In this document: in pieces, positions 5,163 to 64,000 of the stretch
Layout of the letters: each line of letters starts with the position of its first letter
How positions within the stretch are numbered: position 1 is the stretch's first letter
Source of the DNA: Amyelois transitella
Taxonomy: Eukaryota; Arthropoda; Insecta; Lepidoptera; Pyralidae
NCBI RefSeq assembly: GCF_032362555.1
Contig: NC_083516.1
Span: 6,969,001 to 7,033,000 of the forward strand
Length of the DNA stretch: 64,000 bases
Reading direction: 5' to 3'
Position numbers and translations under genes: made by a program
Notes under the pieces: model-generated
The model's input: the letters and a program-made list of their open reading frames with translations, nothing else
Told to the model about the DNA's origin: nothing
The model's database searches: none

Positions 5163-5415
5163 GGTGCCGTGTGTTTCCCGGCACCAATATAAAAAGAGTA
5201 GTACAATTTCATCACTCCCATGGATGTCGTAAAAGACGACTAAGGAATAGGTTTATTAACTTGGGATTCTTCATTTAGGCAATGGGCTAGCAACCTACCA
5301 CTATTTGAATCTCAATTCTACTATTTTATCAAACAGCTGAACGTGGCCTATTAGTATTTGCAAGACAGTTGGCTCTGACTACCCGCAAGGCATATAGACG
5401 TGATTATATGAATAC
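5163..5415 (+). repeat. SINE family A, near full length
   Basis: The copy runs from the head GTGCCGTGTGTTTCCCGGCA through CCCATGGATGTCGTAAAAG, GGGCTAGCAACC and CAGCTGAACGTGGCC to the tail GGCATATAGACGTGATTATA. It is one of the more complete copies. No target-site duplication is evident. Confidence 0.8.
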
Positions 5416-8309: not shown

Positions 8310-8450
8310 TACATACATTTAAAGTTATATAAAATCACACCCCTTTGGCTTTGGTTTTGCAGGTAGGGACATCATTCCACATGCCGTAATCCCTGCGTAC
8401 TCCTACATTTCATCCAAATACATAATTCTTTTGATGAATCCTTGAACATA
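8310..8450 (-). mobile_element. 3' end of the LINE family seen at 45409
   Basis: On the minus strand this aligns with the last coding part of the LINE at 46130-46235. It shows an ATCAAAAGAATTATG stretch, then TGGATGAA, then GAGTACGCAGGGAT, and ends GGGGTGTGATTTTAT followed by a degenerate ATGT tail. Small indels break the frame. It is a 5'-truncated, decayed insertion. Confidence 0.6.
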
Positions 8451-12027: not shown

Positions 12028-12085
12028 AAACATACATACATACATAAAATCACGCCTCTTTTCCGGTAAAAGAGAAACAATGCCA
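12028..12085 (-). mobile_element. LINE 3' tail fragment
   Basis: The minus strand reads CCGGAAAAGAGGCGTGATTT followed by TATGTATGTATGTATG. This is the last codons, stop and ATGT-repeat tail of the LINE at 45409-46240. It is a heavily 5'-truncated copy and shows the tail better preserved than the large copy does. Confidence 0.6.
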
Positions 12086-18470: not shown

Positions 18471-18999
18471 GACCACATACACTCTTTGACTAGGGATTTT
18501 TGGTACTTTCACGCATAATCTTACAATTTGTTTATATACCTATTGCGTGCAAAACATAACATTTTCAGATCGAAGTGTACACGTCTCATTTGCAGTAACA
18601 ATTTTTTTGGATTTAAATACAGGCATATTACTTTGAGCTGCGACCTAGGTATACTCGTGTTTTACGACTGCTCAAAACTACGTAAGTACCTACTGGGTCT
18701 CTCTTTATTCAAACAAGTTCCTTAATTCGTGTTGTTTGGTTTCTTTATTGACTTACAAGCTTTTCAAGGACAAAATAAATTTATGTAACTCTTTAATTGA
18801 GAAAAATAGTACGATAAAGTTTAATTGACAACAGGATTTAGTAGACGTTTCATTTAAATTATACTAATTTGGCTGACGTACTTACTGTACTTAAGTTGGT
18901 AAATATCAAAGTCAAACTTTTATTTGCATCATCTGTAGGATGAGATTTGCTGTCTTATTCTATAACTTATTCTCCACTTTTCCAAGGTATTTAATTCAT

Positions 19000-19185
19000 T
19001 GGCGACTAAGACATAGGCTTATAAACTAGGGATGCCTCTTGTAGGCGATGGGGTAGAAACTTGACACTATTTGAATCTCAATTTCATCATAAAGCCATAC
19101 AGCTGAACCTGGCAGTTTTAATCTTTTCAAGACTGTTGGCTCTGTCTACCCCGCAAGGAATATAGACGTGACTATATGTATGTAT
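19000..19185 (+). repeat. SINE family A, 5'-truncated
   Basis: Begins within the GGCGACTAAG segment and continues through GGCGATGGGG, CACTATTTGAATCTCAATTT and TTTTCAAGACTGTTGGCTCT to the tail AATATAGACGTGACTATATG plus TATGTAT. The tail is well preserved. Confidence 0.8.
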
Positions 19186-24762: not shown

Positions 24763-25050
24763 GTGCCGTGTGGTTCCCGGCAGTGCCATGTGGTTCCCGG
24801 CACCAATACAAAAAAGAATAGGACCACTCATATCTTTCCCATGGATTTCGTAAAAGGCGACTAAGGGATAGGCTTACAAACTTGGGATTCTTATTTAGGT
24901 GATGGGTTAGCAACCTGTCACTATTTGAATCTCTATAGGTACTATCTTATTGTGATTGCCAAATAGCTGAACGTGGCCATTCAGTCATTTCAAGACTGTT
25001 GGCTCTGTCTACCCAACAAGGGCCATAGACGTGACCATATGTATGTATCT
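24763..25050 (+). repeat. SINE family A, full length with duplicated head
   Basis: The head is present twice in tandem (GTGCCGTGTGGTTCCCGGCA, then GTGCCATGTGGTTCCCGGCA). The normal body and the tail CATAGACGTGACCATATG plus TATGTAT follow. Because of the 22-bp duplication it is longer than other copies. Confidence 0.85.
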
Positions 25051-25247
25051 AACTTATGTACTCATATACTATCGACAACTACAGAGAGGGTCATTATTTT
25101 AAGGTACCTTTGTATGACATCTGCTTGCGTAAATTATGCATCTCGGATTTCGAATGTGCCTTTTTTGTTTACCCCACCTTTAAATATAATTTGATTGATG
25201 ATAAATGTTATTTTTTCCTCAATTATAAAATAATCAAGTTTTCTTTT

Positions 25248-27010: not shown

Positions 27011-27109
27011 GTATTACCTTGATGCTGTCTTTTAAATCTTTCTTACTATATTCAAAGACAAAAAAAATATTTTTCAGTAGTAAAACTAAATGATTTTGGT
27101 AAGTGTTAT

Positions 27110-30110: not shown

Positions 30111-30511
30111 GTAATTTGCTCATTTTGTATATGGTATGGCAAACAGTGATCAGCTCGCAACTTTATTGATTATTAGTGAGTACGAGTACTATTCTACATG
30201 TAGCATTGATGGACGAATCAAAAAGATGCCCGATTAAAAATTTACCTCGCATCATACCTCGGCCATATGCCAAAAAGTAATAATTACTTATAATAAAATT
30301 AATAATAAAAGGAAGAACTGATGTGTATTAGTTTGAAAAGTAACCGGTGCTCTTACGGTGAGCGGAAACGTTGTTAGGAAGCCTGTAATACATTGAGGCA
30401 ACTGGATGTGTCACAACGATTAGATTAGGCTCCCTTGCATAGGTTACAGGTTCAGATTTTACCTAACAAGCGTTTTATCTGTCATTCATGAAATTGAGAT
30501 TCAGGAGCACT

Positions 30512-30767
30512 GTGTGCCATGTGGCTCCCGGCACCAATACAAAAAAGACTCCATCTCTTTCCCATGGATGTCGTAAAAGGCGACTAAGGGATAGGCTTAC
30601 AAACTTGGGATTCTTTTTTAGGTGATAAGCTAGCAACCTGTCACTATTAGAATCTCAATTCTATCATTAAGCCAAAAAGGTAAACGTGGCCATTTAGTCT
30701 TTTCAAGACTGTTGACTCTGTCTACCCCGCAAGGGATATAGTCGTGATGATATGTATGTAAGTATGC
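30512..30767 (+). repeat. SINE family A, full length with target-site duplication
   Basis: Complete element from GTGCCATGTGGCTCCCGGCA to GGGATATAGTCGTGATGATA plus ATGTATGTAAGTATGC. An exact 14-bp duplication, GATTCAGGAGCACT, flanks it at 30498-30511 and 30768-30781. This fixes the element boundaries and indicates target-primed insertion. Confidence 0.92.
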
Positions 30768-31967
30768 GATTCAGGAGCACTAAAACAAATAGGTATATTT
30801 ATGTCCACAATCTGTTAAAAGAATTTATTTTCTCGTATGAACCATTTTTTGCAACCCATAGGACTAATTTAGTAGTAATATAAAACGATAATAATAAAAG
30901 CCTTGAAAATGTACCTAACAACATAGATCGTGTTCGTTTTTCGCAAAGCATTAATTATATAAACTTACAGTACCTAACTATCATCAAAATTATTTGGGTA
31001 ATGCATTCTCATACCGCAATCTATCCGGGGCACTTGTTAAAAGCAAGTAGCGATAATGTTTTCGATATTTATTTTTTTCCGAAATTAGTGTCCGTATCAG
31101 CATGTGTCTTCGCATACTGAGTGTACGCAATTTGGTGATGTGAATTAATTGCATTAAGGGTGTGTCACTTGTCAGTGTCCCGCAGTGTACTGATAAAGAA
31201 GCCTACATAATGTTATACGATTAATGAGAGTGAGGAGTATAAGTTTACTTTTACAGAAAAACCTGCACGGTAGGCATAGTAATTATATGTAGAGGTTCTT
31301 TTGAATATTTCGCTTTTGTTTGTTTATACTGATGATTATGAACTATTGATTAAGGACAAAGTATTTATTAAGCCTAGGCATATATTGCAGTTTAATAATA
31401 ATAGAGTGGTAAGTTTACTTTATTTTATTTTTACTTGCATCTTTTCATAGATAATACAATTACCAAGATAACTCTGATTATTCCGAACTCGTAGTCTTGA
31501 CTCGGCTGTTTAAACTAGTAACGACCAAAATATTCCAAACATTAACCTGTTAACAAATTACATATGTCAGATATCATTACAAAAAGAAATGGGATTCATA
31601 GGTACGAAGCTCAGAATACGAAAAGTCTATCAAAGAAACTAGTTAGCCAAGCCGTTTGCCTCCGCTGCTAGTATCGAATGTGATTCATCAAGTCTAACCA
31701 TCGCATTAACATTACGACCATTCACAGTGACCAAATGAGACTATTCGATGGTAACAAACGGCGATCATCCAGCGAAACGACAATGATTTATGTTTTCATT
31801 CTGTTTTGTTCTCGAGTCGGTACTTTACGCGGTATGTTCTATAGAGGCGTGTTTGCGAGTGAAAAAAGATAGGGCGTAATGCCTTGTAGTCCTATAATAA
31901 ACCGATTTCTTATTTTAAAAAAATAATCAAAACATCTGACTCAAAATATAGGTTAGTTGTTATGTAA

Positions 31968-34258: not shown

Positions 34259-35137
34259 TAATGAACCAATATGGGTTGTTTGTTTGTCATATCTTTGAAT
34301 AGAATTTTTACATTCTATATTATTAGGGAAATAGCTATGTAGAGTGGTCAATAAAAGAACCTCATCAAAAAAATAATTTTATCATTTTTTTATTATATAA
34401 GGAATTACTTTGGTAGGATGGGGTCCACAATATCTAAACGAATAAAATGTTTTCCAAAGTTCCCTCATGAACAAAAAATAAACAAAGAAAAGATCGATAT
34501 ACCTAGGTACCTTTAATGAGAAGTATAATGTGATCTGTTCAGTAATTTATTTTCAGAAAAATTACAGAAGTTACATTGCCCATAAGTTAAAAACAATCGG
34601 GCATACTTTTAAACAATCAGCTTTTTGCTTATTACTATTCGCATCTCTATAAATCATTCAACCAGCACATGAAAAGTCGTTCATGATCAATAATAACTTA
34701 TTTTTCGTTCGTAAGAAACAGAAGTTCGTATCATTATTGATTCAGCATTGATCAAGTACCTACTACATACCACCAGATAACAATTACACCCACTTGGATG
34801 AAAAAATGTTGCGTTGTGTGTCTGTCAGCCAATGGAATGATGGAGACAAGGTCGGGATCGGAAGGCGGCGCTCGGTAGCTCAACTTGATCGTGTGGCGAA
34901 AAAAGTAGAAGTATCTATATTATTTATATTATTATTTTTCGAAGGCAATCTCCATCATTACAATCAATCAATTTCAAAAGAATTTTGGAGGCAATTGCAA
35001 CTTTTAATTTGTTAAAATAAATATATACCTAGATTTCTTTTTTTTTAAGATACTTATGATAAGGCAAGAATGGTCCACTGGTTACGAAAATTTTATTAGT
35101 TTGGATTAAAACTAAAAGAAATAATAAATATTCGGGA

Positions 35138-35325
35138 CAAATTATACAGATTGAGTTCGCCTTGAAGTAAGTTCGAAACTTGTGTTACGAGATACTAATT
35201 CAACAATACTTTATTTTATAACAAATTTTTATATAGATAAAAATACAAGACCCTGGACAATCAGAAAAAGTTCGTTTCTCATCATGCCAGGATTCGAACC
35301 CGACACTTACTGTGTCATAGACAAA
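35138..35325 (-). repeat. SINE family B, 5'-truncated
   Basis: On the minus strand the B-box GGGTTCGAATCCTGG, CATGATGAGAAACGAAC, a TTTTTCTGATTGTCCAGG stretch and the AATCTGTATAATTTGT end match the copies at 19258 and 49244. The A-box part is missing. Confidence 0.75.
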
Positions 35326-39840: not shown

Positions 39841-40533
39841 CCTCCCGTCGGAATTTCTAGAAATAAGCAGCCATTTTTGACCTTTCGCATTCATGATTGC
39901 ACTTAAGTACTCAATCCAGTGTCCAGGATCATGGTCTAATCCAGGGTCACGGTCGAAAGGCGACTCCGATTTATTTCAAAAGAGGTTAGGAATCTTTAAA
40001 TCTCAAAACTAAACTTGCTACCAGAACATACTAAATCTTGGTATGACCGTTTCCAAGGCTTTTCCTGTCCTGGCAAAAGCCGGGGCGAGAGTTCTTAAGC
40101 GGCAAGTTGCATGAAGGCAGTGATAATTGTGGATACTGGAAAGATATGGTCTTTGACGATCCTTTCGAAAAAGAGGCTTGATTTTGTATAGGTAGGTATA
40201 GGTATACCTACATGCATGTTTTACTAGAAAATTTCTTTAATGAGGTTCTAAATATCCCGTCCCTACAGCATATTCGTGACAGTTTGCAACAGAGAAAATA
40301 TATTTTTTTAAATCCGTAATGAAATCAACGCATTTTCAATAAGCAACTATTTATTAATCAAAGATATTCTCCATACAATAATACTTTCATAGACAAACCA
40401 CATATCATGCTATCAACATTTTTCTTATTATTATTCTTCTTTCTTATCACAATCAAATGGAAAGTTTCTTAGAATTTTTTGCAGTAAAAACAATGAAAAT
40501 ATTTGATATCTGCACTTATAAAAACACACACAT

Positions 40534-40713: not shown

Positions 40714-43700
40714 TTAAAGTCTTGAGATCCAATCCTGCACAGACTTGATATTGGCCGGGTCGTCGTCGTCGCCTGTGGTGGCTGAACTCTCTGCGATATC
40801 GACGCGACAACTAAGATGAGAAAACTCGAAGTCTTTGCCTAGTTTCCCGAGATATGTGGAGTTGTTCGACTGCGCGGGGTCCACGGATTGAAGCTGGCTG
40901 GATTTCGTCACGCGTACAAGGTTCCTGTAAAAAAACTTCATTTATGTAAAAAAAAGATGTTTGCAATGAGCACATTTGATTAATTAAGTATTAGAATTTT
41001 ATTTTACCCTACCAAGACTACTTTTATATCTAGAATTTCTAATTTAACGCGGGCGGTCATATTAATATTAATGTCACACTTACAGTTCTTTTTCAAGAAG
41101 GCTCTTTATAACTTGGCTGCCCTTAGCCAGCGGTTGATCTTGCTTATTACATAAGATCAGGACCGGAGGACAGTTACTCTGCACCACGGGGTCCACGAGA
41201 ATCGTGTACAAGTACCTGAAAACAAGTTAAAGTGAATAATTACTTTGACCATATCATCATTTATTTTCTTTCATAAACTTAGTATATATTGGCAAATTAA
41301 TGGGCCATTATATACTAACAACGCATTTATATGCCTCCTTAGATGCGTTTGTGATTAGAAGTGAAATATCTTAAATAAATGAAAGAGAAATAGGACATTC
41401 TCGTGAGCAAGGAATTCCCAGGCAGTTTGGTGGCAGCTGGAAAGAATAGTGAGTCCCAGCTACTCCTATTCCCATGCAGATTGTAAAAAGCAATCAAGGG
41501 AAAAACTTATAAAGTAAAGATTAATTTTTGACGATGCTGGAAGAAAATATTTAAAATAAAAGAATCCACCGACTTGAACCGCAGGTCCAGTTGATAGTGG
41601 TCCCAGATAAGGGATTATTTTTCAAGGCAAAGTGTCTGTCACTATTTTTAATATCAATTCTATCATTACGGCATCTAAGCTAAACATGGCCTATAAATCT
41701 CGTTAGTGTTGACTAGGGTAAGCCTATTAGGGAAAATATTTGTCATACTTACTCAGCAACATCTCGTATTTCCTTCTGAATGGTGACAGAGTCGATAACA
41801 TAAACTATAGCTTTGGCGCCGTTCTTGTACTGATCAAAGAATTTGTTACGCAGCCTCTCCTGTCCAGGCAGATCAACTAGTTTTAGAGAGCTCTGGAACA
41901 TTAAAATAAAAAATACCTTAGATTATACTCTTCTAGTGTTGTGTGGTTCCCAGCACTTTGGAATAGGACAACTCCATTTCTTTTCCATGGATGTGGTAAA
42001 ATTGTGATTCTTTTTGTAGGCAATGGACTAGCAACATGTTAATATTTGAATCTCAATTCCAACATTAAGCCATCCAGCTGAACTGGCCTTTAAGTCTTTT
42101 CTAGACTATTTGCACTGCCCACCCTGGTATATGGACGTGACTATATGTATGTATAAATCTTTGAATAATATGAAACTCATAAGGAACAGAAAAATTAAGA
42201 AAGATCTAGAGGAGCACTTTGTGTCAGAATGACATGCTGATGGAGACTAATGTGTTTTTATTATAATAGTTGCAAATGTGTATTTGTAAAGCACCAATAA
42301 AGGCTTCCGAAATTTTAAAATATGTATACTCTCTTTACTATATGTTAATAAATTATAGGTAAATGTTAATTGTGCAATACTAGGTTAAAACAATTCTAGA
42401 TAGATTTAAAATAATAATATATTACTAAGTAGGTACCTTTATGTATAAATTAGTATGTCTACTTATACATAATAAATGTTTGCAACATCCAAAAGGGTAA
42501 ATACGAAGATCTATACATATAAATTTAAGACGTTGTACTCATGTTATGCAAATAAAAATTAGAATTATCTATTTTTTACTTAAAGAAAATTATTAGTTAT
42601 CAAAAATGTAGTTCAGCAAAGTAGGTGTCCTAAGCCTGAAGAGTAAACAAACAAATAAACTTACTTTCACATTTATAATCTTAGTTGCAATTTCTTTTTC
42701 ATATTACTATTTCTTACACTTACATTGCTTGTGATGTACTCTTCCACATTCTCTTTCATTGAGGTAAAGGTCTGTCTGTATTGAGAATAAGCCAGTTGCA
42801 CAAACAGCAATGTCTTCCCGGAGTCCGACAGTCCGGTGAGCAACACTGATCGGCGGGCATGGCGCCGGCGGGTGAAGCACCACCAAAATACTGCAAATTC
42901 ATATAAGAGGACATTAACAATGTGACTATGAAATAAAATCTTGCAGTCAATACAATTGACGCAATTTTTAAATTATTTTATAAGTATTCATTCATACTCT
43001 TCGGTCACAGTAAATGAGCTGCTTCTACTAAAAAGTACCCATTTTTTTTTCTGAGAAAGTTATCACATTGTTTAACTTTTGTAGATTTTTATACACGTAT
43101 GAAGATTTAAAGAAATACTTTAAGGCACTCTTATTTATTCAAGGAGGTTATCATGAGGATGTAGCAAAAGGGATATGCAAGATTGTGGCAAATAAAAAGC
43201 TGTAGTCTCTTCATACCCCTCCACGAAAGAAGCGAGATTTTATGTATACATATGTAACTCCTAATGTTAGAACATATAGCACACAGGGCACAGCTAGTTC
43301 AATATAAGTAGGTTCACAGTATAACAGCTCTAATTCAAGCTTGTGTTGTGTAGGAATTTTCAAATTCTTCCAGTAAAATAAGAGACCGGATATTATGTAC
43401 CTATAAACAATTATTGAATTATCAGCCATGAAAATTAAGACAAATAAATCTGTTAATACTGCCCTTTATAAATTAGTACTTTACATGCAACATTGTTCAC
43501 TTTCTTTGAAACAAATACACTGGAATTGAATGATATTTAGAATATGGGACTGGGTTTTATAATAATTTATCCAGTTTTATTGCTGATTTCAGCACAAAAT
43601 CTTATAAATAAGATAATATGATTTTTTTTCTTATAGTGAAAACAAAACATAAAGTGTGTGTAAGCTGCTTCTCTTCCCATTCAGATTGTAAAGGTCATTC

Positions 43701-44582
43701 AGGGGAGGGGCTGATAATGTTGGGATTTTTCTGAATGTGACCTTTCAGTCTTTTGTACACTGTATCTACGACATGATCATATGTTAGGTACATATGATCA
43801 CATCCCTCCCTTACGAGGCAGAAAGAGCCAGCAGCATAGAAAAGACTGAATCTGTGTAAGTTATTATTATATTCCAAATATTTTTAATAAAAAAAATCAA
43901 CTAAAAGAAATTAGGTAAATAATAATACATTTTAATAAGAAATCTCTTTCCCACGGATGTCGTAAAAGGCGACTAAGGGATAGGCTGATAAACTTGGTAT
44001 TCTTTTTTAGGCGATGGGCTAGCAACCTGTCACTATTTGAATCTTAATTCTATCATTAAGCCAAATAGCAGAACGTGCCATTCAGTCTATTCGAGACTGT
44101 TGGCTCTGTCTACCCCGCAAGGGATATAGACGTGACCATATGTATGTATGTATGTATGTTTAATAAGGAAGAGAAAATTTTATATCATTGCATTACGTTA
44201 ACTCTTAAGAATATAGTAAAGGTTTGTTAATATTTTATAAAAAAGAGAAATTTTGATCGACATCCAATGTAGGTAGGAAATTTTATGATTTATGCATGAC
44301 AGCTAACTCGAATTATGTCGCTAAGAGAATGTAACCTTAAAAACTGGCAACCCGGAAGACCGAACTTGTACACTATCTACGACCCTAAGTGAATTAAAAC
44401 ATAACTTGAACTACCCATTGTTGGTTGTATAAAAGCGTCCAAAGTAGTATATGTTATTAGTAGATAAAACATTACCTACCTAAGGTAAATACTAGCACAA
44501 TAACACTTAGCAAGGTTATGTATCGAGGGTCGTTCAACATTGGTTCTGTTTGTATTTTTTCTTTAACTACTTCAGAATCCAT
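40714..44582 (-). CDS. SRPRB: Signal recognition particle receptor subunit beta
   Basis: SRP receptor beta is the membrane-anchored small GTPase that holds SR-alpha at the ER for cotranslational targeting. Five coding exons on the minus strand: 44480-44582, 42724-42890, 41753-41892, 41084-41215 and 40714-40924, all with GT-AG junctions and matching phases, give 250 residues. A short N-terminus is followed by a hydrophobic anchor at about residues 23-40 (YITLLSVIVLVFTLVFWW). The GTPase motifs are GLSDSGKT (P-loop), DLPGQE (G3) and NKQD (G4). The C-terminus FEFSHL...SVQDWISRL is the usual SR-beta end. Introns 2 and 4 hold SINE copies antisense to the gene. Start at 44582 is the first ATG before the anchor. 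Length is close to animal orthologues. Confidence 0.95.
41450..41725 (+). repeat. Diverged SINE family A-like copy in SRPRB intron
   Basis: CCTATTCCCATGCAGATTGT, then a run of non-matching sequence, then TCTGTCACTATTT, ATCAATTCTATCATTACGGC and CTAAACATGGCC follow family A order with large divergence. The CCCATGCAGAT start recurs at 43665 and 55398, so this may be a separate subfamily. Confidence 0.45.
41937..42154 (+). repeat. SINE family A in SRPRB intron
   Basis: GTGTTGTGTGGTTCCCAGCAC head, TTTTCCATGGATGTGG, GGACTAGCAAC, TTTGAATCTCAATTCCAACA, then GGACGTGACTATATGTATGT. It has internal deletions but is nearly complete, and lies antisense to the gene. Confidence 0.8.
43284..43298 (+). mobile_element. 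Possible Helitron-like 3' terminus
   Basis: GGGCACAGCTAGT matches the terminus of the element at 38274-38550. The upstream sequence is not recognisable, so this could be chance. Confidence 0.22.
43665..43850. repeat. Two facing SINE-like fragments
   Basis: A plus-strand fragment (TTCCCATTCAGATTGTAAAG to GTGACCTTTCAGTCTTTTG) meets a minus-strand one (CATCCCTCCCTTACGAGGCA, then CAGCAGCATAGAAAAGACTG). Between them lies GATCATATGT / ACATATGATC, a 10-bp inverted repeat with a 5-base loop. The pair forms a tail-to-tail inverted arrangement in the first SRPRB intron. Confidence 0.45.
43940..44159 (+). repeat. SINE family A, head-less with probable target-site duplication
   Basis: Very well preserved from CTCTTTCCCACGGATGTCGT to GATATAGACGTGACCATATG and a (TATG)n tail. 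The head before CTCTTTCCC is absent. TTTAATAAG occurs at 43931-43939 and again at 44160-44168, consistent with a 9-bp duplication. It lies in the first SRPRB intron. Confidence 0.85.
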
Positions 44583-45114
44583 AATTAATCAGACTTGGTT
44601 CGATTTATAATTTCTATAATATACAGTTTACAAATTAACCTCAAACTCAAACCAAATCAGGACCTAATAAACAAAATCAGGGCCGATGACGTACTGAACT
44701 GTGGTGACTGACGTGGTGGTTTTGACTTTGATTGACATTTACAGATATGTACACAAAATGCCGCATTGTATGTCAATGTCATTATCACGTTTTCTTTGGA
44801 GACTTGTTTGAGACAATGAAATAATATTCTATGGAGGTGCCCTAATTGTTCAACTTGACTCAGAAATAAAAACTGATATATCTGTCTCTTTCTCACAACA
44901 GTGGTTTAACGGGAGAAAAAACGTTTACACTCTTTTATCAGCACCCTCTTCATTGGCTTCGATGTGTTTGTGCTGGAGCACCGCCATCTTAAGTAGCCCG
45001 CTTAGCTTACTCGTGGAAGTTATCACCGTGAGGATTTTACGTTTTTCCGAGGAAATCCCGTGTTTTTCTACTGTTTACCAAGTTGTGCTTAGATTAATCG
45101 ATAATAAACAACAA
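44583..45114. promoter_or_regulatory. Divergent promoter region, SRPRB / THAP exon
   Basis: 532 bp between two start codons facing away from each other. CCGCCATCTT at 44981-44990 is a YY1/Pho-type site in the orientation often found near housekeeping starts. AATCGATAA occurs near 45096. No TATA box is evident. The region probably includes both 5' UTRs. Confidence 0.55.
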
Positions 45115-45182
45115 ATGAAGTGTTCAATAGCATATTGTGGCTTATGCCAAAGCAAAAATAGGCCGAATTTAACCTTTCACCG
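45115..45182 (+). CDS. First exon of a THAP-domain protein, or remnant of one
   Basis: THAP domains are DNA-binding C2CH zinc fingers at the very N-terminus of proteins. This exon reads MKCSIAYCGLCQSKNRPNL then TFHR, which fits the family's start (Cys, 4 residues, Cys, then the ...FHRF block). It ends CACCG with a strong donor GTAAGT at 45183. The frame is open upstream, but the ATG at 45115 is where THAP proteins begin. The expected next exon (FP..., tryptophan, CX2H) is not found before PNPO. A Helitron end (45381) and a decayed LINE (45409-46240) lie where it might have been. Either the rest is further away, spliced across PNPO, or it was lost. Confidence 0.5.
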
Positions 45183-45380
45183 GTAAGTGGTTAATATTTG
45201 GTTGAATTATGGTCTATCATACAGTGTATTTAATGAAATGTGTTTAAAAACCTTATTACTTTTAATCTTCTTTGTTGTGAGCTTTAAAAAATTGTAATAT
45301 TCTCAATATTTCATTCACATCGAAAACATAAACACGTGTGCTAGTGTTGAACATCATCGAACATAGAATCTTATCGATAA

Positions 45381-45408
45381 ACTAGCTGTGCCCGCGACTT
45401 CGTCCGCC
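45381..45408 (-). mobile_element. Helitron-like 3' terminus abutting a LINE
   Basis: On the minus strand it ends GTCGCGGGCACAGCTAGT, as the element at 38274-38550 does. Only ~28 bp remain before LINE sequence starts. The first residues of the open frame that begins at 45388 (MPATSSAN) come from this fragment, not from the LINE. Confidence 0.55.
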
Positions 45409-46240
45409 AACCTATTTATGGATAGTTTGACAGATTTGAAAGAGTCTGAAATTGGATTAAGGATGAATGAGTTACTCGTCAAATGTCTGCTCTATGCCGA
45501 CGATCAGGTTATATTGGCGTCATCAGCGGAAGAATTACAGGAGATGGTAAACTGTATGCGTGAAGCTTTAAAAGAGAAAGGAATGAAAGTGAACGTAAGT
45601 AAAACTAAAACACTGGTTTTTGAAATGGAGAAAGAAATGACAGCATGTAATATTTTGATTGGAGGAGAATGGAGCTTTGCATGCCTTTATGAGCAGTCAG
45701 AAACTATCCAAAAAGGCTCGACTGGCCACAGCCAGTATAGGGGCGTGTTGGTCCCAACATTAATGTATGGGAGTGAAAGTTGGGTATGGCAAAAGAAGCA
45801 CGAAAACAGAACAAATGCAGTGGAAAAGAGAGCGTTAAGGAGTATGATGGGTGTGAAATTGAGTGACCGGATAAGGAACATCGTGATAAGGAAATGTGAT
45901 GTGAAAGAAGATGTAGTTACAGGAATAGAAAAGGGTATGTTGAGATGGTTCGGTCATGTGGAGAGGATGAATGAAAGCGGGATGACTAAGCAGATATACA
46001 AGGAGAGTGTGGAGGGAAAGGTCGGAGTGGGAAGACCTAGACGAACGTATCTTGATCAAATTAAGGACGTCCTGGTAAAGGGTCAGGTCAAAAGTACCCG
46101 AAACCGCCGAACTTGCATGAAGAGAGTTATGAATGTGGATGAAGCGAAAGAAGTACGCAGAGATCGTGGCAAGTGGAAAGAGGTAGTCTCTGCCTACCCC
46201 TCCGGAAAAGAGGCGTGATTTTATTTATGTATGTAATTAT
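45409..46240 (+). mobile_element. Decayed RTE-type LINE, 3' half of the reverse transcriptase ORF
   Basis: The frame carries the reverse transcriptase motif LLYADDQVILASS, then MKVNVSKTKTLVF, then VLVPTLMYGSESWVW, MLRWFGHVERM, VGRPRRTYLDQI and the C-terminus VVSAYPSGKEA. A short 3' UTR and ATGT-type tail follow. The endonuclease and most of the RT are missing. Between about 45667 and 45745 the open frame is shifted: the proper residues (ALHAFMSSQKLSKKARLA) appear in the next frame, and a preceding block of roughly 35 codons seems deleted. The frame stays open by compensating indels. The lack of poly(A) and the repeat tail fit the RTE clade. It is dead but is the likely relative of the partner of SINE family A. 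Confidence 0.8.
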
Positions 46241-46964
46241 ATTTGATTTCCAAACACTTTATCAGAATGACAGGTAATAGATACAATATTGTTGGACCTT
46301 AGATTATAGCCAAGATAGTAAGGATTCCCGATGTAAATTTTTTTTTTCAATAAATTTAATTCGGAAATAAACATCTTAACTCACTCGTCCATCGATAAAA
46401 TATTATCGACTAAATGAACATCTCTAGTCCGCCATGTTTGTATCCGGGTTTGTTTATTTAGGTATGCAGGAAAAGTACATGCATAGGGCACTTCCATAGG
46501 ATTGTTCTTCTGAGGTTTGAGACGAACTAAACATGACATTTAGTTTGACAGTCTTCATCATTCATTGATTCGATTTGGATTTTGGATTGATTGTTGTTGT
46601 GTTGTGATTCGGCACAGTCGTGATATAATAGGTATCTCTATCTATTTAGTTTGTGGTCGTGATGATAGCGGTTATAAAAACTTGATCCTGCGATTGAGAT
46701 TTAATCTACAGCTTCATGATTGTGATTTGTGAGTATCTACCTATCAAGATTATTTTTGTAATTGTAAGTTCAGGATATAATTTTCACATATTATAAAAGA
46801 CGGTATTTTGATAAAACTTGCTGATAACATTTATTTACCATATTTTGTACTTTCAGTTTGAGCAGACAGTAGATCCACCACCACTACACTTCATGCTTCA
46901 CACGACCGACTGCACCTATATAAATTAGAACTCAGTGCTACGGCTAATCTTGTACTCCAGTTGC
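46241..46964. promoter_or_regulatory. Upstream region and 5' UTR of PNPO
   Basis: AATTTAATTCGG and ATCGATAAAATATTATCGAC (from 46391) lie upstream of GTCCGCCATGTTTGTATC, which holds a YY1-like GCCATGTT. A block of moderate composition precedes the PNPO start codon. No coding content is seen. A transcription start probably lies between 46430 and 46900; its position is not determined. Confidence 0.4.
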
Positions 46965-49885
46965 ATGGGATCTAAACTTCTTTTTCGTTCCACAATCTCT
47001 TCGGCAACTCTGAATTTATCGAACAAAATGAGCATAGACATTGGAGGTAACTTACAATCTCTATAAGAGTTAAACAATTTTTGTGTTTTACAATAAATGA
47101 TAAATCTTGTTTGTTTGTGTTTTACAATAAATGATAAATCTTGTTTGTGCTTTCAGGTATGAGAATAAAATACAAAGATAAAAAAGATACATTTTTAGAA
47201 AAACACTTGGTTTCTAAAGAGCCTTTTGGACAATTCAAAGCATGGTTTGATGAAGCTTGTTCTAGAAAAGAAATATTAGAACCAAATGCAATGTGTTTGG
47301 CGACAGTCTCAAAGTAAGATATCTATTAAGTACATTAAAAATAAGCTCAAGTAAATTATTTATAGGTAGGTACTAAGGTTGGCAAGTAAAAGAATTTAGT
47401 CTCTCTCTCCTCCAACCATTAAACCTATGTTTTCTCTGCATAACTTACACCATTTAAGGTTGGAGGTTTATTGTTGATCATGTTTGCCTACAACGACAAT
47501 TTTTATATCTGATCTTTAACCAATTTTACATTATATGTATTTGGAAACCTTCATAGGCCTAAAATAGTGAGATAAGATAGAAGATGTACTTTATATTTGT
47601 ATCATCATCAAATTTTTGTTTGTTTTGTGTTTTAATCTTATCTCAATAATTGTATATTTATTACAATGTTATATTTCATCATCATTTACTCTTCTTTATT
47701 TATTCTACTGTAGAAGCAACACTTGGCTTACACACTTTATATTAGCCTTGATTTGATAAAATGCATTTCTTTATTCATGTGCATATTCTGCTTAAATTAA
47801 GACTTATAGAATTTATTGAAGCTCAAGACAAGTAAAATAGCATAAAGCAACTTCTTAAATTATATTTCACAATTATTCTGAGCATTTAGAAAGTTCAAAT
47901 TCAGTTAAGTAGAATAAAACCTTTATTTCCTTAGGTGTATGTAATAAAGCTGGAAATATTAATTTTGACCTTTTTGTTCTACAGAGATGGTTATCCATCT
48001 GCCAGATTTGTTCTATTGAAAGGTTATGGAAAGGATGGATACAAGTTCTTCACCAACTATGGAAGTAGGAAAGCCAAGGAAATGGTTTGTGAAATGAATT
48101 TGATTTTTTTCATACTCTGACATTCTTATTTCTCTGATAGTAAAGAAGTAGACCTATAAGTGTAGAAAAAGGAGCAGATGCAACTTGCTCTCACAAGGAT
48201 TCTGAATTTATACCAACAATAAATACAAATAATTATCTGTCACTGAACAAGTAAAAAAATAAGAAGAGGTGGATGCCAACCCTTTAAGTATAGCATTTTT
48301 AAATAATTCATATCTGAGTTACAAATAATAAAAATAAACAAATAATTTTTAAAAATGCCAAAGACCATAAATATAGAAGTTATATCTGACCAATATGTTC
48401 ATTCCAGACTGAAAACCAAAATGTAGCTGCAACATTTTACTGGGAGGTATTAAATCGGTCTGTGAGAATTGAAGGGCATGTGGAAAAACTCTCCGAGCAG
48501 GAATCCACTACATATTTCCATTCTCGCCCTGTTCCAAGTCAGATAGCAGCCTGTGCTAGTTTCCAGAGCACACCAATCGAGTCCAGAGATATATTATGTG
48601 AGAGGGAAAAAGTACTGGAGGAAGATTATTTGATTCCTGGGAAAGAAGTTCCTAAACCAGATTACTGGTAAGTTGAGCACTACTACTAAATAAGAAAACA
48701 TCCTTATTTGTATGGTATGAAGTGCAAAATCACATTACAAAACACTCCTTTACTGTAGGATGTTTGAACTGACCCTTAGCTTCTGCAAAAATGATTTATG
48801 AAAGTTAATGGTATTTTCTTCACTCATTTGCACAACAAAATAAGCAATAAAAATTGTGATTTGTTTTTTACTGTTTTAAATGTAGCCTATTATATTGTAA
48901 GGAATGTAATGAGATTATGTGAAAATAACATTATTTTTTCTTATCTATTGATATTGACCACTTTTCTTCTTCACCACTCTGGAGAGGTGTCCGGGGTATG
49001 CCTTTGACCATGGATCCTGGATTAGGTGAGTCAGGTTTTTATATGAAGCAACTCCCGTCTGACCTTCGCAACCATTAGCACATGGCCAGGGTGGGATTCG
49101 AACCTGTGCCCTATTGCACCACGCGCATTTTAATCGGGCACCTTACCGATTCGACCACCGACGCTCTCTATACCTTTTTTAGTTTTAGTAAAAAAAAATT
49201 AAGCTATCCATTCAACTTCAACATTAAACAAACATAGCTTCTTGACGGCCTCTGTGGCGCAGCGGTAATACGCTTGTCTGTGACACCGGAGGTCCCGGGT
49301 GCGAATCCCGGCCAAGGCATGATGAGAAACTAACTTTCTCTGATTGGTCTGGGTCTTGGATGTTTATCAATCTAAGTATTTATTATAAAATATAGTATCG
49401 TTGAGTTAGTATCTCGTAACACAAGTTTCGAACTTACTTCAAGGCTAACTCAATCTGTGTAATTTTTTCCCGTTTATATTTATTTTTTTACCTACACTGA
49501 GTACAAAAGCAATAATTAAGAAATTTTGTCATTTAAAAAATGTGTATGATGGGAAGATACCCATTACACTGGCAGCATTCCCCTGCTGTATCGCAAGAGA
49601 GATGCCTTGCATCAGGTAGAATCAGCATGGTGAACAGCGCCGTTATTAATTAATTAAAAATAAATTTTAAACTAAAATTTATTGTGAAACTGCTTGCAAT
49701 AACATTTTCTATATGCCAGGGGTGGCTACATTATTCGTCCCACGGCTGTGGAGTTTTGGCAAGGACAGAGGGACAGATTACATGATAGAATAAAGTTCAG
49801 AAAGCCAAAGGAAGGTGAGGTTGCAGATGGTAAGCTTCTTCACCAGGGGGAGGACGGCTGGGTGTTTCAAAGACTTTCTCCATAA
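46965..49885 (+). CDS. PNPO: Pyridoxine/pyridoxamine 5'-phosphate oxidase
   Basis: FMN enzyme that oxidises pyridoxine/pyridoxamine 5'-phosphate to pyridoxal 5'-phosphate in vitamin B6 metabolism. Exons 46965-47046, 47157-47313, 47985-48084, 48408-48667 and 49720-49885, phases matching, encode 254 residues. Family landmarks in order: [92 protein letters not shown] and the C-terminal end WVFQRLSP. The donor after exon 3 (GTTTGT) is weak. The first 21 residues before an internal Met (47028) are basic, hydroxylated and lack acids until then. They could be a mitochondrial presequence, with the internal Met giving a cytosolic form. Convergent with METTL18. Confidence 0.95.
48968..49168 (-). repeat. 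SINE family C (tRNA-headed) in PNPO intron 4
   Basis: On the minus strand the head has an A-box-like GGTGGTCGAATCGGTAAGG and a B-box-like GGTTCGAATCCCACC. It then runs through GACGGGAGTTGCTTCATA, GTCAAAGGC and ATACCCCGGACACCTCTCC. Its tRNA-like head faces the head of the family B copy 75 bp away. Confidence 0.65.
49244..49470 (+). repeat. SINE family B (tRNA-headed) in PNPO intron 4
   Basis: A-box TGGCGCAGCGGTAATACG, B-box GGTGCGAATCCCGGC, then TTTCTCTGATTGGTCTGGGT and CTTGGATGTTTATCAATC, ending near CAATCTGTGTAATTTTTT. It is the best-preserved family B copy and matches 19258 and 35138. It is not a functional tRNA gene: the acceptor-stem 3' half is replaced by the body. Confidence 0.8.
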
Positions 49886-50055: not shown

Positions 50056-51776
50056 TTACAACCTGTGAGTTATTTTTAAGATCTCTCTTTGTATACCACC
50101 TGAACATGTCCAACAGATTTCACTTTGAAATGTCCCATTGTTCTTAAGTTTACTTTCAAATTGTCTCACTCCACCTCCCACTCCAAAGTAGCAAGTTTTT
50201 GCTGCCAAGTACACCGCCCCAGTTCTGCTTAGTCTTTTTATAAAAAGGTTAATAAGTTTGTCATAATTAGCAATATTGTAAATTGTCTCTGATGTAAGTA
50301 TGACGTCATAAGATTCAGTTTCATCTATCTTGTTAAAAGATTCCCAGTCTCCAGAGTAAAATTTACACTTTCTTATGTTTTCTGACACATTATCCTCTTC
50401 ATCAATATTCAGTAGAACATTGGGTATTGTAACATGTTCCAAAACTTCTTTATTCTAAAAAAACATTATTTGATTATAATATGGGATTAATTGTTAAGCA
50501 GGCACTAAATAAATTTAATGTTTAACCCTTTTAAAATGCCACAATTTAAAAGAATAAAGGACTACTTCATCCCTTTTCCATAGATGTCGTTAAAGGTGAC
50601 TATGGGATAGACTTATAAACTTGAGATTCTTCTTTTAGGCAATGGGCTAGCAATCTGTCGCTATTTTAATGTCAATTTTATCATTAAGCAGCGATGGGCT
50701 AGCAATGTGTGCAATAATATTTAAATCCCAATTCTATCACAAAGCCTAACAGCTGAATGTGGCCTAATAGTTTTTCAATACTGCTGGCTCTGGCTACCTT
50801 GCCTGCAAAGTATATAGACATGATAATATGAATGAATTGACAAAGTCATGAATTAGTCTATTATATTTAATGTCTATAATATACTACTTACATAGTCTTG
50901 AAAAGTAACATGTGCTCCATTTATGAATGCATAAATTCCTAGAATACCAGCTCCACAGCCTAAATCTAAAACTTTGGCTGATTCTAATTTGATTGTGTCA
51001 GAATTGTTTTTAAGATACTCAACTAAATCATATGTACACTCCCATATCTTCAAACCACCTAAAACCATATTACTTATTACATCATTCATATAAAATTACA
51101 AAATCCTGTGTAGTTTTGGTTAGAACAAAAAAAGGAGCCTTACAATATGTAGCTGTTGAAGGTGGCAAATATAAAGCATAAGTAAGTGACTTATGCATTA
51201 AAAATATCCAAAGTAGCTCAATGAGGCAAGCAACCATTTGATATTTTATTATATTTACCAGTGTCAGATGCCTTTATAGTGAGAACCCAAGTTCATCAAG
51301 CAGTAGGTATGAACTTGGATGTTACTATCTTTAGACTTGTAGCAAATAATGATGGATTTTTTTCAGAATTGGAATTACGTTACTGGCTTATAGTCAATGT
51401 AAAATACCTTCATATTTAGCTGTTACAAGATCACTGTGACTTTTTTCAGCACAACCAGTGGCATTATTCATATCTGTGTCACTAAGAATATTAGCAAGAG
51501 CTTCACTGGTAACCACGTGTCCTATTTCAACTTCTCCACATGTAAACATTTTAGCATGTTTAGCAATTTCATTTAAATCCTTCATTTGTGTTTTAGGTAC
51601 AACTTCTTCACTATCGAACCATTCGACGTGATCCCTTTTTGGTTCTAAAGCTAAAACATAAAAAGTCTTCCTAATCTAAAATTTTGTAGGACTTTCAAAA
51701 GCTATAGATATGGAATGAGCTTTTTACCTGGTTTATCGGCCTCTGATTCCCGAGAAAAATTGAACATAAACGACAT
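50056..51776 (-). CDS. METTL18: Histidine protein methyltransferase 1 homolog
   Basis: Seven-beta-strand methyltransferase of the METTL18/Hpm1 family, which methylates a histidine of ribosomal protein L3 (family knowledge). Minus-strand exons 51728-51776, 51408-51650, 50892-51058 and 50056-50454 join in phase to 285 residues. The start MSFMFNF is the family's typical N-terminus. SDLVTAKYEGGLKIWECTYD links exons 2 and 3. The SAM motif I is VLDLGCGAGILGIYA, followed by FQDYN and VTIPNVLLN. Later, YDVILTSETIYN and AAKTCYFGVGGGVRQF are the catalytic-domain signatures. Intron 3 (about 440 bp) contains a SINE. It is shorter than the human protein mainly at the N-terminal half. Divergent from PSME3, convergent with PNPO. 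Confidence 0.93.
50561..50836 (+). repeat. SINE family A with internal duplication, METTL18 intron 3
   Basis: TTTTCCATAGATGTCG, GATTCTTCTTTTAGGC, then the segment GCAATGGGCTAGCAAT...ATCATTAAGC is followed by a second version GCGATGGGCTAGCAATG...ATCACAAAGCC. The tail AGTATATAGACATGATAATA follows. The head is missing. The ~55-bp duplication is unique to this copy. Confidence 0.75.
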
Positions 51777-52774: not shown

Positions 52775-52835
52775 TTAGATCCAAAGTCTCCGCCTACCCC
52801 AATGGGAAACAGGTGTGACTGTGATCATGGTATGT
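52775..52835 (+). mobile_element. LINE or SINE 3' tail fragment
   Basis: GTCTCCGCCTACCCCAATGG, GAAACAGGTGTGACTGTGAT and GGTATGTATTC align with the shared tail of the LINE at 45409 and SINE family A. TCTCCGCCTACCCC is nearer the LINE version. Confidence 0.5.
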
Positions 52836-52861
52836 ATTCTTTTTTTTGGTTTAAAATTTAT

Positions 52862-53942: not shown

Positions 53943-56900
53943 ATGGATGTAACGAAAGTTGACGACGCGATGATGCTAAAGGCAAGTTTATTAAACGATA
54001 TACATAAATATATGATACATTGAAAATTATAATTCGTGTTTTAGTTTTATAATAATCGATGTAAAATGTTGTATTGTACTTAACATTTTGAAATTATTTT
54101 TGATTGAGGCTGTATGTAATGTATTCATTCGCTCGCCTACTTCAGTATTCGTCATTCAACAATTCAAACAGGGATTCGCACGCGAGTCGAGTACATAGAT
54201 ACTCATAATTTGTTAGTTAAATTTAACAATATTCCGAAAATAATTTGGGATTTTAATATAACTCAATCCCAATAAAATCATGACAGACGTTGCGAAAAAG
54301 GTAGTGTGTCATTATTTTGTTTGTACTTCAGTAAAGTTTGACATGACGACTGTATTGTGATTAGTGTGCGTGACCATAGTATAAAATTCGATATTACCTT
54401 ACGTTTACGGTTATAAAAAGTATTAACCGGGGGTTTTCTTTCTGCGAATATATTGTTTTCGTTGAACGGCGCGTTAGACTGCGATACCAAGGAAAAGTCA
54501 ACATAACCTCAACAAATTGTGCGGCCATGGAAGTATGGCATATTGCTATAACATGAAACGACGGAAATTTTTGTAGTATAGCACTAATCGTATGTTTATT
54601 CCTTTTGACAGGTTCAAGAGTACAAAGATTCTCTCAAGCAGAAGGCAGAACATTTAATTATAAAGGGATTTCCAGAAAAAATAGTAAAGTTGAATGAACT
54701 ATTAGAAACACCAAATTTCCAAAATCGAATTTTAACCGACGTCCACCAGGTAATGTACTGCAATTATTATTGTATTAAATGTGATCATTATCAGAAATTC
54801 AAGTGGTACATGACTGAGCAAAATTTCATCATAATAAGCACACCATATTACTTTGTGGTATTTGGGTACCTCTACAAAAAAGTCTAATTTGAATCTGAAT
54901 GAACTTGGATAAAAGTCAAAAGCTAATGTGTTAATGAATCACACAATAGCACAAATTCATTTAGGCAGTTTCATTAATTTCACTCTGAAGGAAAAGTTAA
55001 ATAACTTTTCCCCTCTTAACAAATTTATGTCTATTTTGAGTAATTTATTTCAAGCTTTAGTTTTAATAACTTTTTTGTTTTAAACTAATTTATTTCATTG
55101 CTTGTTTTAGGACTTAAACATTCCAGTGCCCCCTCCAGCAGTGGTTTCTAATGAGCCCAATGCAAAGCGGCCACGGCTTGACTCTTCAGATGTGTCAAGT
55201 AACTCCACTGTGGATGGCTCAAAAGTTTATGCTCTTCCTAATGGAACAGTACCATGCAACAAACCACTAAGTGACCTCATACACCTTGTCAAACCTCACA
55301 TTAGAGAGCTGGTAGAGGATTCTAATCTGGTAAGCTTGTGTTCTGAATGATTCACACAATATATATATATATGCATATAAAAAAACTAATATAAACAGTT
55401 GCTTCTTTTCCCATGCAGATCGTAAAAGTCAATTATAAACTTGAGACATCTATAAGATGACAGGCTTACAACCTGTCACTATATAAAACTTAATTACATC
55501 ATTGAGCCAGTGGATTGTGGCTATCTAGTCTTTTCCGAATTGTTTGTTTGTTTGTAATATCTTTATTGCATAGAAATTTACACAGTAACAAGAAAATAGT
55601 ACATAGTTACAAAAGAAACAAATCACTTGCAATGGCGGACTTACTGTTGTTTTTTGCCTACCTTCTATGTATGTATAAATGAAACTACACTTTGACAAGA
55701 CTGTATTACTTTTATTAAAACTATGTTAAGAATCTACTAATAAATATATAAAAATTGGAAATTCTTATCTTATATTACAAGGTCTGTTTTCAAACAGTTA
55801 AAGCAAGAATATTACTGGGAACATGCAAAGACAAAGGAAATAATGAAATTATTGGAATAGTCATTTTCTTGGGTTCATTCTGTTAAGGGTTTAATGACAC
55901 AAGTTTCCTGTATTCCTTTTTGTCAGTTTTATTTTTTTTAATTTCAGCTGAAAATGTGGATCTCATTTATGATTCCCAAAATTGAAGATGGTAATAATTT
56001 TGGTGTATCAATACAAGAGGACACCCTTGCAGAGATTCAATCAGTGGAGTCTGAAGCGGCCGCATTCTTTGACCAGATTTCACGGTACTTCATATCCAGA
56101 GCAAAAATTGTCTCAAAAGTTGCAAAATATCCACACATTGATGACTACAGGAGAGCTGTTAAAGTGAGTTTTCTTTCAGTCTTATTTTTTTGTTTATGGT
56201 AATCATAATCATAATCATTTATTCCTTGAATATGGTTACAATGTTGGTCTTAGTATTTAGGTACAGCTTCTGTGAACACATATTCTACCTCTTAAGGCGT
56301 CGTGCGTTATTATATACATATATTTTAAATTAGTAGCATATAACACCATAATCAAAATCATAATCATTTATTCCTTGAATATGTTTACAATGTTGGTCTT
56401 AGTATTTAGGTACCACCTTTGTGATATCATACTTTGAATATAATGCATATAATGAATTTATAGGCAGTTGTAAAATTATACAGCCAGTTTCCATGTTGGC
56501 CAGGTATCAGCTTCTTCTCTTTCCATAGACTCTTCTTCTCTACTTTTAGATTGGTCAAGTCAATCAAGGAAGGGGGCTATAATTTAGTAACTTGTTCTCA
56601 GATTAATGGGCCTTTTGTCTTTTCAAGATTGTTGGCTCTGTCTACCTCCTAATGGATATAGGCATCATTATATGTATGTCAAATTATTACAACTGAAATA
56701 TTTCACCTAGGCGAATAAGTAAAAATCCTTTCGAGTAGTGGAAAATCCTTATATTATTTTTCTGTATTAAGTGTTACAACAATATCAACATATGAAGGGG
56801 AACACCAACATAATCTTCAGAAAAGATTGACAAAGAAGAAAATCTAGAGTTAATAATATTTGTTGATAAGTGAGAAAACATGGTATATTGAAAATATTTT

Positions 56901-61688: not shown

Positions 61689-64000
61689 TCAGTAGACTTC
61701 CTCTTCTTCTTTCAAACGCAATATGTCCGACTTGTTCATGAAGTAGTAGGAAGGCTGCCGGCCCTTTAGGTCTTTGAGGACTCGCTTGGCTCCGGCCCGG
61801 ATCAGCAATCTGCTCAGTGACTCTATTTTCTCTACTCCCATCGCGTAATGCAAAGGCATGCGTTCCAGCTGTCAACATTGAACATAGAATAATGCCCTTT
61901 TGAAGAGAAAAATATGGTTGTTGGGGCAAATCATCATAAGAAGGCACCCTTAAGGCCTTCTTATGATGATTTGATAAATAATAAAACCTATTTCACATTG
62001 ATGAACATAGCAGATTGCGGACGGTGGACTTCTATTACAGTACGGACACGAAGAATTGGCTCAAAATGGTTATCAGCTGTTCTAAACAAACTTTTTAAAT
62101 TATTACCTAGGTCCCCAATAAAAACAGTCTAATTTGATCTAGGGCAGCTGAGGAAGGCAAGTCAGATCCTACAAATAAGGTAAATTACCGTCTTTGTCGT
62201 GTGGTTTCCTGCACTTAAGAATAGAATAACTCCATATCTTTCCCATGGATGTCGTAAACGGCGACAAAGGAATAGGTTTATAATCTTGGGATTCCACTTG
62301 TAGGCTAGCAACCTTTCACTATTTGAATATCAATTCTATAATTAAACCAAACAGCTGAACGAGGCCTATCAGTCTTTTCAAGCTGTACTGACTGACTTTT
62401 TGTATTTATGTATGTATGAACCGTCATTTCTTGGAACAGTTAATGCCAATTTTCATTTGTTATTGGCCATTGTCATTTATTACTGTGATAATAGGAAAAG
62501 TACCGCGGATTTAGAATAATCTATATCTAAATTACTGAATTCAAACCATGCTGCTTGTAACTTTTGTTGTTATTCTAACTGTCGCTATCAGGAGTAAGAA
62601 TAGCTGATAGGGTCAACTGGAATAGCTGGCGCTAAAACAGTCTCATACATTATCTCCAATCCGTAACAGTTCAGGATAAGTTTGCGCCAAGTAGGCGACG
62701 ATCTCCTCGTTTTGGGCCAGAACAGAGATGTGCAGGGCGGTTCTTCCAAATGTGTTCTGACTGCGGGCGAGCGTACGTCCTCCTTCAGCCGACAGTATTT
62801 CCTGGACAGCCAACAGGTCACCACGTCTGACAGCGCCGTGAAGAGCTTCTCGCGACTCCTAGTGATAAAATAAATAAAAAGTAAACTATATACACGCATA
62901 CACATATCACGACCTTATCCTGACCTGACCTGACTGAGTAGTGAATGTTGAGTAAAATGAAAGGTTATTAAAGTAGTTTTGTTTGTATAAGCCACTCAAG
63001 TTTAATAATAATTAAGTAGTATTGGACAGGTAAATTAATATAAGTACGACTTTGGTATAATTAATAACGAGAATGTTTATTAATACCGCTTGTATGTTAC
63101 TAGGTATATATAATTTTCTTTGAAACAAAAAGTACGTGATTTTCTGTTATAAATGATCAGCAGTTTCAAAAGCTACGACCATGTCGGCCATTTCACTTCC
63201 GGCAGGTTTTTTCAATTATTCACCTTAATTTCAGTTGGTCATGAATAAATTATACATCAACCTACTGTAACAACACAAAAGAACATACGTTATATATGCA
63301 GAACAATAAGTTCATTGCCATGTAGAGTACGTCTAAACTTAATTTGTAAAGCTACGAGTAACATAACGACCTCCAAGATGTATTGTTTTGTGAGGCAAGT
63401 TTGTTACTCCAGAACTCAGGTTCGATTTTCAGGTTATATTGTGTACTCGCAAAGATTTCTGTCAGCAGTTTTGGTTGCTCTTTGTGTTTGTGTACAATCT
63501 TATGAAACTAGTTTAAGAATTAAATAATTTTTTCAACCAACACGATTTAACCCAGAATAATAAACATACGTTGAAACTCGCAGCACAAATACAAATCAAT
63601 GAGCGCAGCACATAAGAAAATTAGTTTAATTTTATCGTAAACGTTTTATTGACAATTAATATTGATGATATAGGTATTGATCAAAAGAAAAATAATTTTA
63701 GATATACAAGTAGTAGGTATAGTTAACATCTATAGCTTTTAGCTTAAAGCTATCCTTTATAACTAGGAATAGCCGTAGCATTTATAAATTTCAATACCAT
63801 TGGCTTTGTCGGGGAAGACATTCATTATTACGAGATGAAGCCGTGATGAATGAATCCTTTGTACCTCAAACGCTGGAATGGAAGCGAGAAGGTTCCCCAT
63901 TTCGCTGTCCCCTCGCTGGGTGATCACGTCGGTGATTGTCACGCCTTCTTCATCGACTACGTCTAGAATGTGATCGTAACCTTCTAGTAGTAACTCCATT
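61689..64000 (-). CDS. Ankyrin-repeat protein, 5' end outside the window
   Basis: Ankyrin repeats bind partner proteins; no specific function can be read here. Minus-strand exons 63865-64000 (continues upstream), 62649-62858 and 61689-61868 join in phase 0. They read MELLLEGYDHILDVVDEEGV..., then ESREALHGAVRRGDLLAVQE and FGRTALHISVLAQNEEIVAY, then a second boundary into LERMPLHYAMGVEKIESLSR. The last part reads LLIRAGAKRVLKDLKGRQPS and ends LRLKEEEEVY. TALH and MPLHYA are ankyrin TPLHxA motifs, and LLIRAGAK is the helix/turn of a repeat, so at least three repeats are visible. The Met at 63999 may be internal. Introns carry a perfect hairpin (61927) and a SINE (62196). It is convergent with the CCDC34-like gene. 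Confidence 0.75.
61927..61973. repeat. Perfect hairpin, 19-bp arms
   Basis: CAAATCATCATAAGAAGGC, a 9-base loop, then the exact reverse complement at 61955-61973. It lies in the last intron of the ankyrin gene, 59 bp upstream of the acceptor on the transcribed strand. Confidence 0.9.
62196..62428 (+). repeat. SINE family A in ankyrin-gene intron
   Basis: GTCGTGTGGTTTCCTGCAC head, CTTTCCCATGGATGTCGTAA, GGCTAGCAACCTTTCACTA, CCAAACAGCTGAACGAGGCC, TTTTCAAGCTGTACTGACTG, then TTTATGTATGTATG. It lacks the TACCCCGCAAGGGATATAG stretch, apparently by deletion. Antisense to the gene. Confidence 0.75.

Follow-up and report, generated by a model that had tools for sequence, protein, structure and literature searches.

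In the genome of Amyelois transitella, SINE family A and a full-length RTE-type LINE share both ends around an unrelated body, which makes the pairing tighter than one based on the tail alone. Family A is probably a non-autonomous retroposon that depends for its movement on the RTE-type LINEs resident in that genome. These elements were studied starting from a window of 64,000 nucleotides (contig NC_083516.1, positions 6,969,001 to 7,033,000), which belongs to a 327-Mb assembly of 33 contigs. An earlier note on the window had proposed that the SINE carries the 3' tail of an RTE-type LINE with ATGT repeats, and the consensus comparison described below bears this out; it had also taken the LINE lying in the window for the probable mobilisation partner, and this had to be abandoned, as that LINE is a dead fragment within a DNA transposon.

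The following copies of family A were located in the window, with identities given relative to the family consensus:

43940..44158, + strand: SINE family A, 5'-truncated (without about 48 nt of the head), with an (ATGT)n tail; 97.2% to consensus nt 49-265
43931-43939 and 44159-44167: direct repeat TTTAATAAG flanking the SINE at 43940..44158
44104..44151, + strand: SINE tail, located by exact string match
30514..30766, + strand: full-length SINE family A, 89.7%
24783..25051, + strand: full-length SINE family A, 88.9%
5164..5413, + strand: nearly full-length SINE family A, 83.9%
18972..19185, + strand: SINE family A copy, 82.4%
62195..62386, + strand: old SINE family A, head kept and tail end lost, 78.7% (consensus nt 2-208)
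41936..42154, + strand: old SINE family A with head and tail, 70.9%

As expected of a SINE, family A has a short consensus (265 nt), target-site duplications, and a high copy number. The consensus was built from 30 genome copies, the top hits of a search with one window copy, which is itself among them; these differ from the consensus by a mean of 1.3% over 200 nt, a low divergence that is biased to young copies because the loci were picked as best matches to the window copy. Among the window copies, identity falls as low as 71% along almost the whole element, and the two figures together speak for a long family history with recent activity. Genome-wide, the junction between SINE head and body was found 15,614 times at up to 3 mismatches (control, 0). 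Allowing a tolerant match, 25 of the 30 copies start at GTGCCGTGTGG, as do many LINE copies, and duplications of 7-13 bp flank 15 of the 26 copies examined, the other 11 having none of at least 7 bp. A further family A copy at 50548-50837 has a partly repeated body, seen as two adjoining matches. The window also holds a second SINE family with a tRNA head, at 19257-19416 (+), 49244-49489 (+), and 35115-35288 (-), in which Rfam reports a tRNA of 30.3 bits at 49248-49319, and, at 56200-56431, two 83-nt direct repeats that are 89% alike and start 149 nt apart.

The 3' ends of RTE-type LINEs recognised in the window are the following:

46188..46235, + strand: LINE 3' end common to the SINE (last codons, TGA stop, and ATGT repeat), located by exact string
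43147..43256, + strand: diverged RTE-type 3' end, 76.8%
8310..8435, - strand: diverged RTE-type 3' end, 67%
12030..12066, - strand: very short RTE-type 3' end, 94.6% over 37 nt
40126-40206 and 52785-52837: further LINE ends

The LINE end at 46188-46235 reads exactly as had been quoted, and the two other LINE ends that had been said to keep it were recovered, at 8310-8435 (67%) and at 12030-12066 (95% over 37 nt; quoted as 12028); the SINE end string is likewise present, but starts at 44104 and not at 44105. When the ATGT repeat is excluded, the consensus SINE tail and the extreme LINE 3' end, represented by one open-frame genome copy, are identical at 28 of 37 columns (76%), a score reached by 0 of 1000 shuffles. 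In this alignment, the final 45 non-repeat nucleotides of the SINE lie against LINE nt 3366-3401, and nt 3401 directly precedes the repeat. Agreement of the consensus tails outside the ATGT repeat, on which the proposed pairing had been made to depend, thus extends to most of these columns but not to the remaining 9 of 37. The match does span the last codons, the stop, and the repeat of the LINE, as proposed, but the SINE has one extra nucleotide in the shared tail and its reading frame differs. Single window copies, with the ATGT repeat kept, match better than all 300 dinucleotide shuffles; for the tails alone without the repeat, 1 of 300 shuffles was as good under strict scoring and 0 of 300 under lenient scoring. 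Under strict scoring, the match of the whole SINE to the whole LINE fragment in single copies without the repeat falls short of significance, being equalled by 55 of 300 shuffles; with lenient scoring the number is 7 of 300. The tail match is therefore real but short. For the SINE body (nt 117-205), 925 of 1000 shuffles score as well against the LINE; the body is thus unmatched there, and the tail similarity exceeds it. A blastn comparison of the SINE with the complete LINE leaves just two hits at E 0.01, the head and the tail. The suggestion that the tail should exceed the rest of the element accordingly holds for the body, while the head turned out to match the LINE too.

The LINE in the window and the element that carries it are arranged as follows:

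45408..46240, + strand: RTE-type LINE fragment, by blastn to a full-length copy (RVT_1, 39 bits)
44814..46514, no strand assigned: DNA transposon of 1701 bp enclosing the LINE fragment, with flanks common to 20 of 30 LINE loci
44806-44813 and 46515-46522: 8-bp duplication GTTTGAGA flanking the DNA transposon

The fragment consists of LINE nt 2483-2747 (window positions 45408-45669) joined to nt 2849-3423 (45664-46240); it is 5'-truncated, about 101 nt are absent internally, and its open frame crosses the garbled stretch by luck. The same flanking sequence is entered at 20 of the 30 fetched LINE loci (L031-L050, L031 being the window copy); since resemblance to the window copy governed the choice of loci, this ratio does not extend to the genome at large. 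Direct repeats measuring 8-9 bp lie just outside 12 of the 13 transposon copies (from these 20) in which both ends were found. From the common flanks and the direct repeats, we infer that the near-identical LINE pieces were multiplied by the DNA transposon, and the window LINE was rejected as an active partner. An 8-bp target duplication fits the P superfamily, to which the carrier may belong; a 77-aa frame in the carrier has no Pfam match and has, by eye only, a THAP-like peptide start. A nested transposon case is described in the text of PMC6522560.

Outside the window, the LINE family is young, and the intact copies that the earlier note had suggested looking for do exist in the genome as open-frame copies. 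The protein search gave 32,471 first-look candidates, 143 of which were scored; among those listed, at least 44 LINE loci have uninterrupted frames of at least 1018 aa, and in 37 of these 44 the frame is exactly 1059 or 1061 aa. The 1061-aa frame matches RVT_1 at 141 bits and Exo_endo_phos_2 at 27.4 bits, the latter at the cut-off, so that a single open reading frame holds both endonuclease and reverse transcriptase, as in the RTE clade; we provisionally assign the LINE to this clade because it resembles known RTE elements. Full-length copies measure about 3425 bp, and four copies of the family are 99.7-99.9% identical over 3.3 kb. In all 24 copies compared at their ends (the four near-identical ones plus 20 more on the plus strand, with frames of 1059-1095 aa), TGA is followed by a few bases, ATGT repeats, and then flank, with no poly(A). 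The loci L051-L060 are separate LINE insertions with different flanks and ATGT tails. Upstream of one long-frame copy (L064:1-510), an older RTE-type 3' end is directly followed by a reversed SINE-type tail.

The 5' ends, unexpectedly, match as well: LINE nt 1-104 and SINE nt 3-116 agree at 98 of 114 columns, or 94% with gaps excluded (blastn E 4e-29), a match that maps to LINE nt 1 and that 0 of 1000 shuffles equalled. The SINE head was found upstream of the common block in three of the four near-identical LINE copies, and among the 24 long-frame copies it is present from the first nucleotides in 17, the flanks of which differ; in 13 of these 17 its 107 nt are identical without exception. Seven copies start later, two of them within the head, which we read, for the group as a whole, as probable 5' truncation. 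The junction between head and LINE occurs 446 times genome-wide at up to 3 mismatches (reversed-pattern control, 0), and the 100 places listed are all exact matches. Target duplications of at least 7 bp (8-12 bp) bracket head and LINE together in 6 of the 17 copies examined, and no duplication of at least 7 bp was seen in the other 11, in a test limited by the many fetched LINE 5' flanks of only about 11 nt. The junction counts, the differing flanks, and the bracketing duplications indicate that the head is the native 5' end of the LINE and not a neighbouring SINE. With E values up to 10, Rfam reported no tRNA, 7SL, or 5S in one full-length SINE copy, and none in window positions 24700-31000 (which include two full SINE copies) or in the LINE head; the same library does detect the tRNA in another SINE of the window. 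At the sensitivity of Rfam, which a strongly diverged head could escape, the head is thus ruled out as a tRNA, 5S RNA, 7SL RNA, or library-known ribozyme. The earlier note was right that the SINE head is not obviously derived from any of the three small RNAs, but it did not see that the very LINE family it described starts with this head.

A LINE matching the SINE tail much better than this one had been named as evidence against the pairing, and it was sought among samples. The RTE motif was found spelt unlike that of the main family at 482 sites; from the 100 of these that were listed, 20 were fetched, picked for unlike spelling, and 13 of the 20 had a readable tail (score of at least 18 against the LINE tail), the other seven having none. 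All 13 readable variant tails score higher against the LINE tail than against the SINE tail. The core of the SINE tail occurs without SINE sequence directly before it at 12 loci, none of which shows LINE coding sequence within the preceding 150 nt; examined as 225-base pieces, these loci prove to be bare tails or parts of SINEs, with the tail as the sole LINE match. Viral contigs gave no match, save one pattern stretch without a confirmed relative, and bacterial genome contigs gave none. Since tail identity is 76% and the variant tails are nearer to the LINE, the SINE tail may stem from an unsampled LINE lineage, and a LINE outside the sampled variants is possible as a better partner.

The same two-step hairpin is predicted for the tails of the SINE, the young LINE, and one variant (L120). 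Its energy is not out of the ordinary: it was equalled by 19, 45, and 136 of 200 shuffles in the three tail types, and that of an older LINE tail by 54 of 200, or 113 of 200 when more flank was included. In the lower stem, a single pair has both of its bases changed, a result that 37 of 500 shuffles also reached, as counted over 8 of the 13 readable variant tails together with the SINE tail and two LINE tails; the variants L118, L122, L127, L129, and L133 were left out of the count, as was the upper stem, where the alignment shifts. A conserved 3' hairpin is hinted at by these predictions and no more.

If family A is moved by the RTE-type LINE, as we think probable, the LINE reverse transcriptase would recognise the common 3' end and copy the SINE RNA into nicked DNA, and the common 5' end would serve as a joint promoter or RNA start. 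The SINE would then resemble a short internally deleted element (SIDE) of an RTE in which a foreign body separates the two ends; as in a SIDE, it has both its 5' and its 3' end in common with a resident autonomous LINE. The window's own LINE fragment takes no active part, having been brought there by the DNA transposon. Target-site duplications of the SINE and the LINE are similar in length, and both families have young copies.

The head may have passed between the two families in either direction, and it is quite conceivable, if somewhat short of an even chance, that the LINE got its 5' end from a SINE, a promoter derived from a small RNA having been captured via template switching or insertion; the captured promoter would now drive the LINE, and the SINE would have borrowed the tail only. 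The ages of the copies compared are consistent with this, since divergence from the consensus amounts to 10-29% in four window SINEs that keep head, body, and tail and the compared LINEs are 99.7-99.9% identical, as are the description of the relatives PxSE1 and PxSE2 as tRNA-derived and the length of PxLINE1.1, only 3228 bp against about 3425 bp here (both in the text of PMC8010984). The heads themselves argue otherwise: at the 19 columns that separate SINE from LINE heads, each of the 25 young SINE heads agrees with the SINE at 16-18 positions and with the LINE at 0-1, and eight of nine old window copies lean to the SINE state, the ninth (41936) departing only through gaps. As young and old SINE heads both have the SINE state, the LINE head forms a separate lineage and does not come from a recent SINE subfamily. 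Nor did Rfam, at E up to 10, find in either head the tRNA that a captured promoter of that kind might have left. None of the 13 older RTE copies has the LINE 5' region beyond matches to a SINE-like head.

A separate doubt concerns the tail, which the SINE may have received from another RTE lineage, unsampled or extinct, with the present LINE acting on it via the ATGT repeat and the similar hairpin. We consider this rather unlikely: the 9 of 37 differing consensus columns and the nearness of all 13 readable variant tails to the LINE speak for it, but the 12 loci with a tail core and no SINE yielded no LINE coding sequence within 150 nt upstream, and a head common to the present LINE family would need a separate explanation. 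That nothing more than an ATGT microsatellite and a short GC-rich stretch arose twice, by chance or convergence, would agree with the strictly scored comparison of whole SINE and whole fragment, but the consensus tails, whose ends coincide exactly, and the heads both beat every one of 1000 shuffles, and such a coincidence is hardly credible. Our preference stays with family A as a probable passenger of the RTE-type LINE family.

Both ends are shared in trypanosomes as well, where RIME/ingi and the Pr77-bearing retroposons comprise a LINE and a short element with a common 5' signature and 3' end; they differ from our pair in clade and host, and their 5' end is described as activating transcription. 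Among moths, tails common to SINEs and RTE-type LINEs have been published for HaSE1/HaRTE1.1 (PMC3272025) and for SfSE1 and PxSE5/PxLINE1 (PMC8010984), so that tail sharing as such is not new. In Helicoverpa armigera, the 3'-terminal 43 bp of HaSE1 and HaSE3 are 82% identical to the 3' end of HaRTE1.1; these SINEs have TGA repeats, in contrast to the ATGT of family A, and tRNA- or 5S-derived heads, and the text of that paper reports no common 5' end (PMC3272025). SfSE1 of Spodoptera frugiperda has an (ATGT)n tail, a 298-bp consensus, and a 3' end like that of an ATGT-ending LINE (PMC8010984), and we infer that family A is SfSE1-like, a comparison made by tail type and length only. The 43-bp tail of PxSE5 is 84% identical to PxLINE1.1 and is shared by SfSE1, and near-identical copies of the LINE are described (PMC8010984). 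The text of the same source describes SfSE1, PxSE5, and PxLINE1 as strongly divergent in their 5' regions (PMC8010984), whereas here the LINE starts with the SINE head; given the 5' divergence of PxLINE1, the common 5' end may be confined to some lineages. That paper also cites the hypothesis that LINE ends are a source of SINE bodies (PMC8010984). In Heliconius, Metulj is an abundant SINE with a tail like that of an RTE LINE, which is suspected to be its partner; unlike in our pair, the tails are A/T-rich, and the text of the two reports describes no common 5' end (PMC6685494, PMC4016481). Within Lepidoptera, the both-ends arrangement is shown by Persaeus/Zenon, in which a short element with a high genome share has both ends of its LINE around an unrelated centre (PMC6740152). 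Persaeus and Zenon belong to the CR1 clade, going by the text of that report (PMC6740152), and family A and its LINE would be their RTE-type counterpart.

In the text of the open-licence papers covered, we found no RTE-type LINE with a lepidopteran SINE head as its 5' end. It is possible, though we put it forward with some doubt, that the PxSE1/SfSE1-like elements, a large group among moth SINEs to which a tRNA origin is ascribed, in fact carry as their head the 5' end of an RTE-type LINE; they would then be both-end parasites of one LINE, with a foreign insert. The opposite direction would be an RTE-type LINE running on a captured SINE promoter, likewise not found in that literature. As a rule, a SINE is matched to its LINE through the tail alone, and its head is ascribed to a small cellular RNA. 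Family A counts some 15,600 junction copies, and its head stands at the 5' end of a young open-frame LINE. This gives a testable route to the origin of the SINE head and of the "central domain," which the text of PMC8010984 leaves open, and it offers a case from nature where experiments can tell the sharing of a promoter apart from the sharing of a tail.
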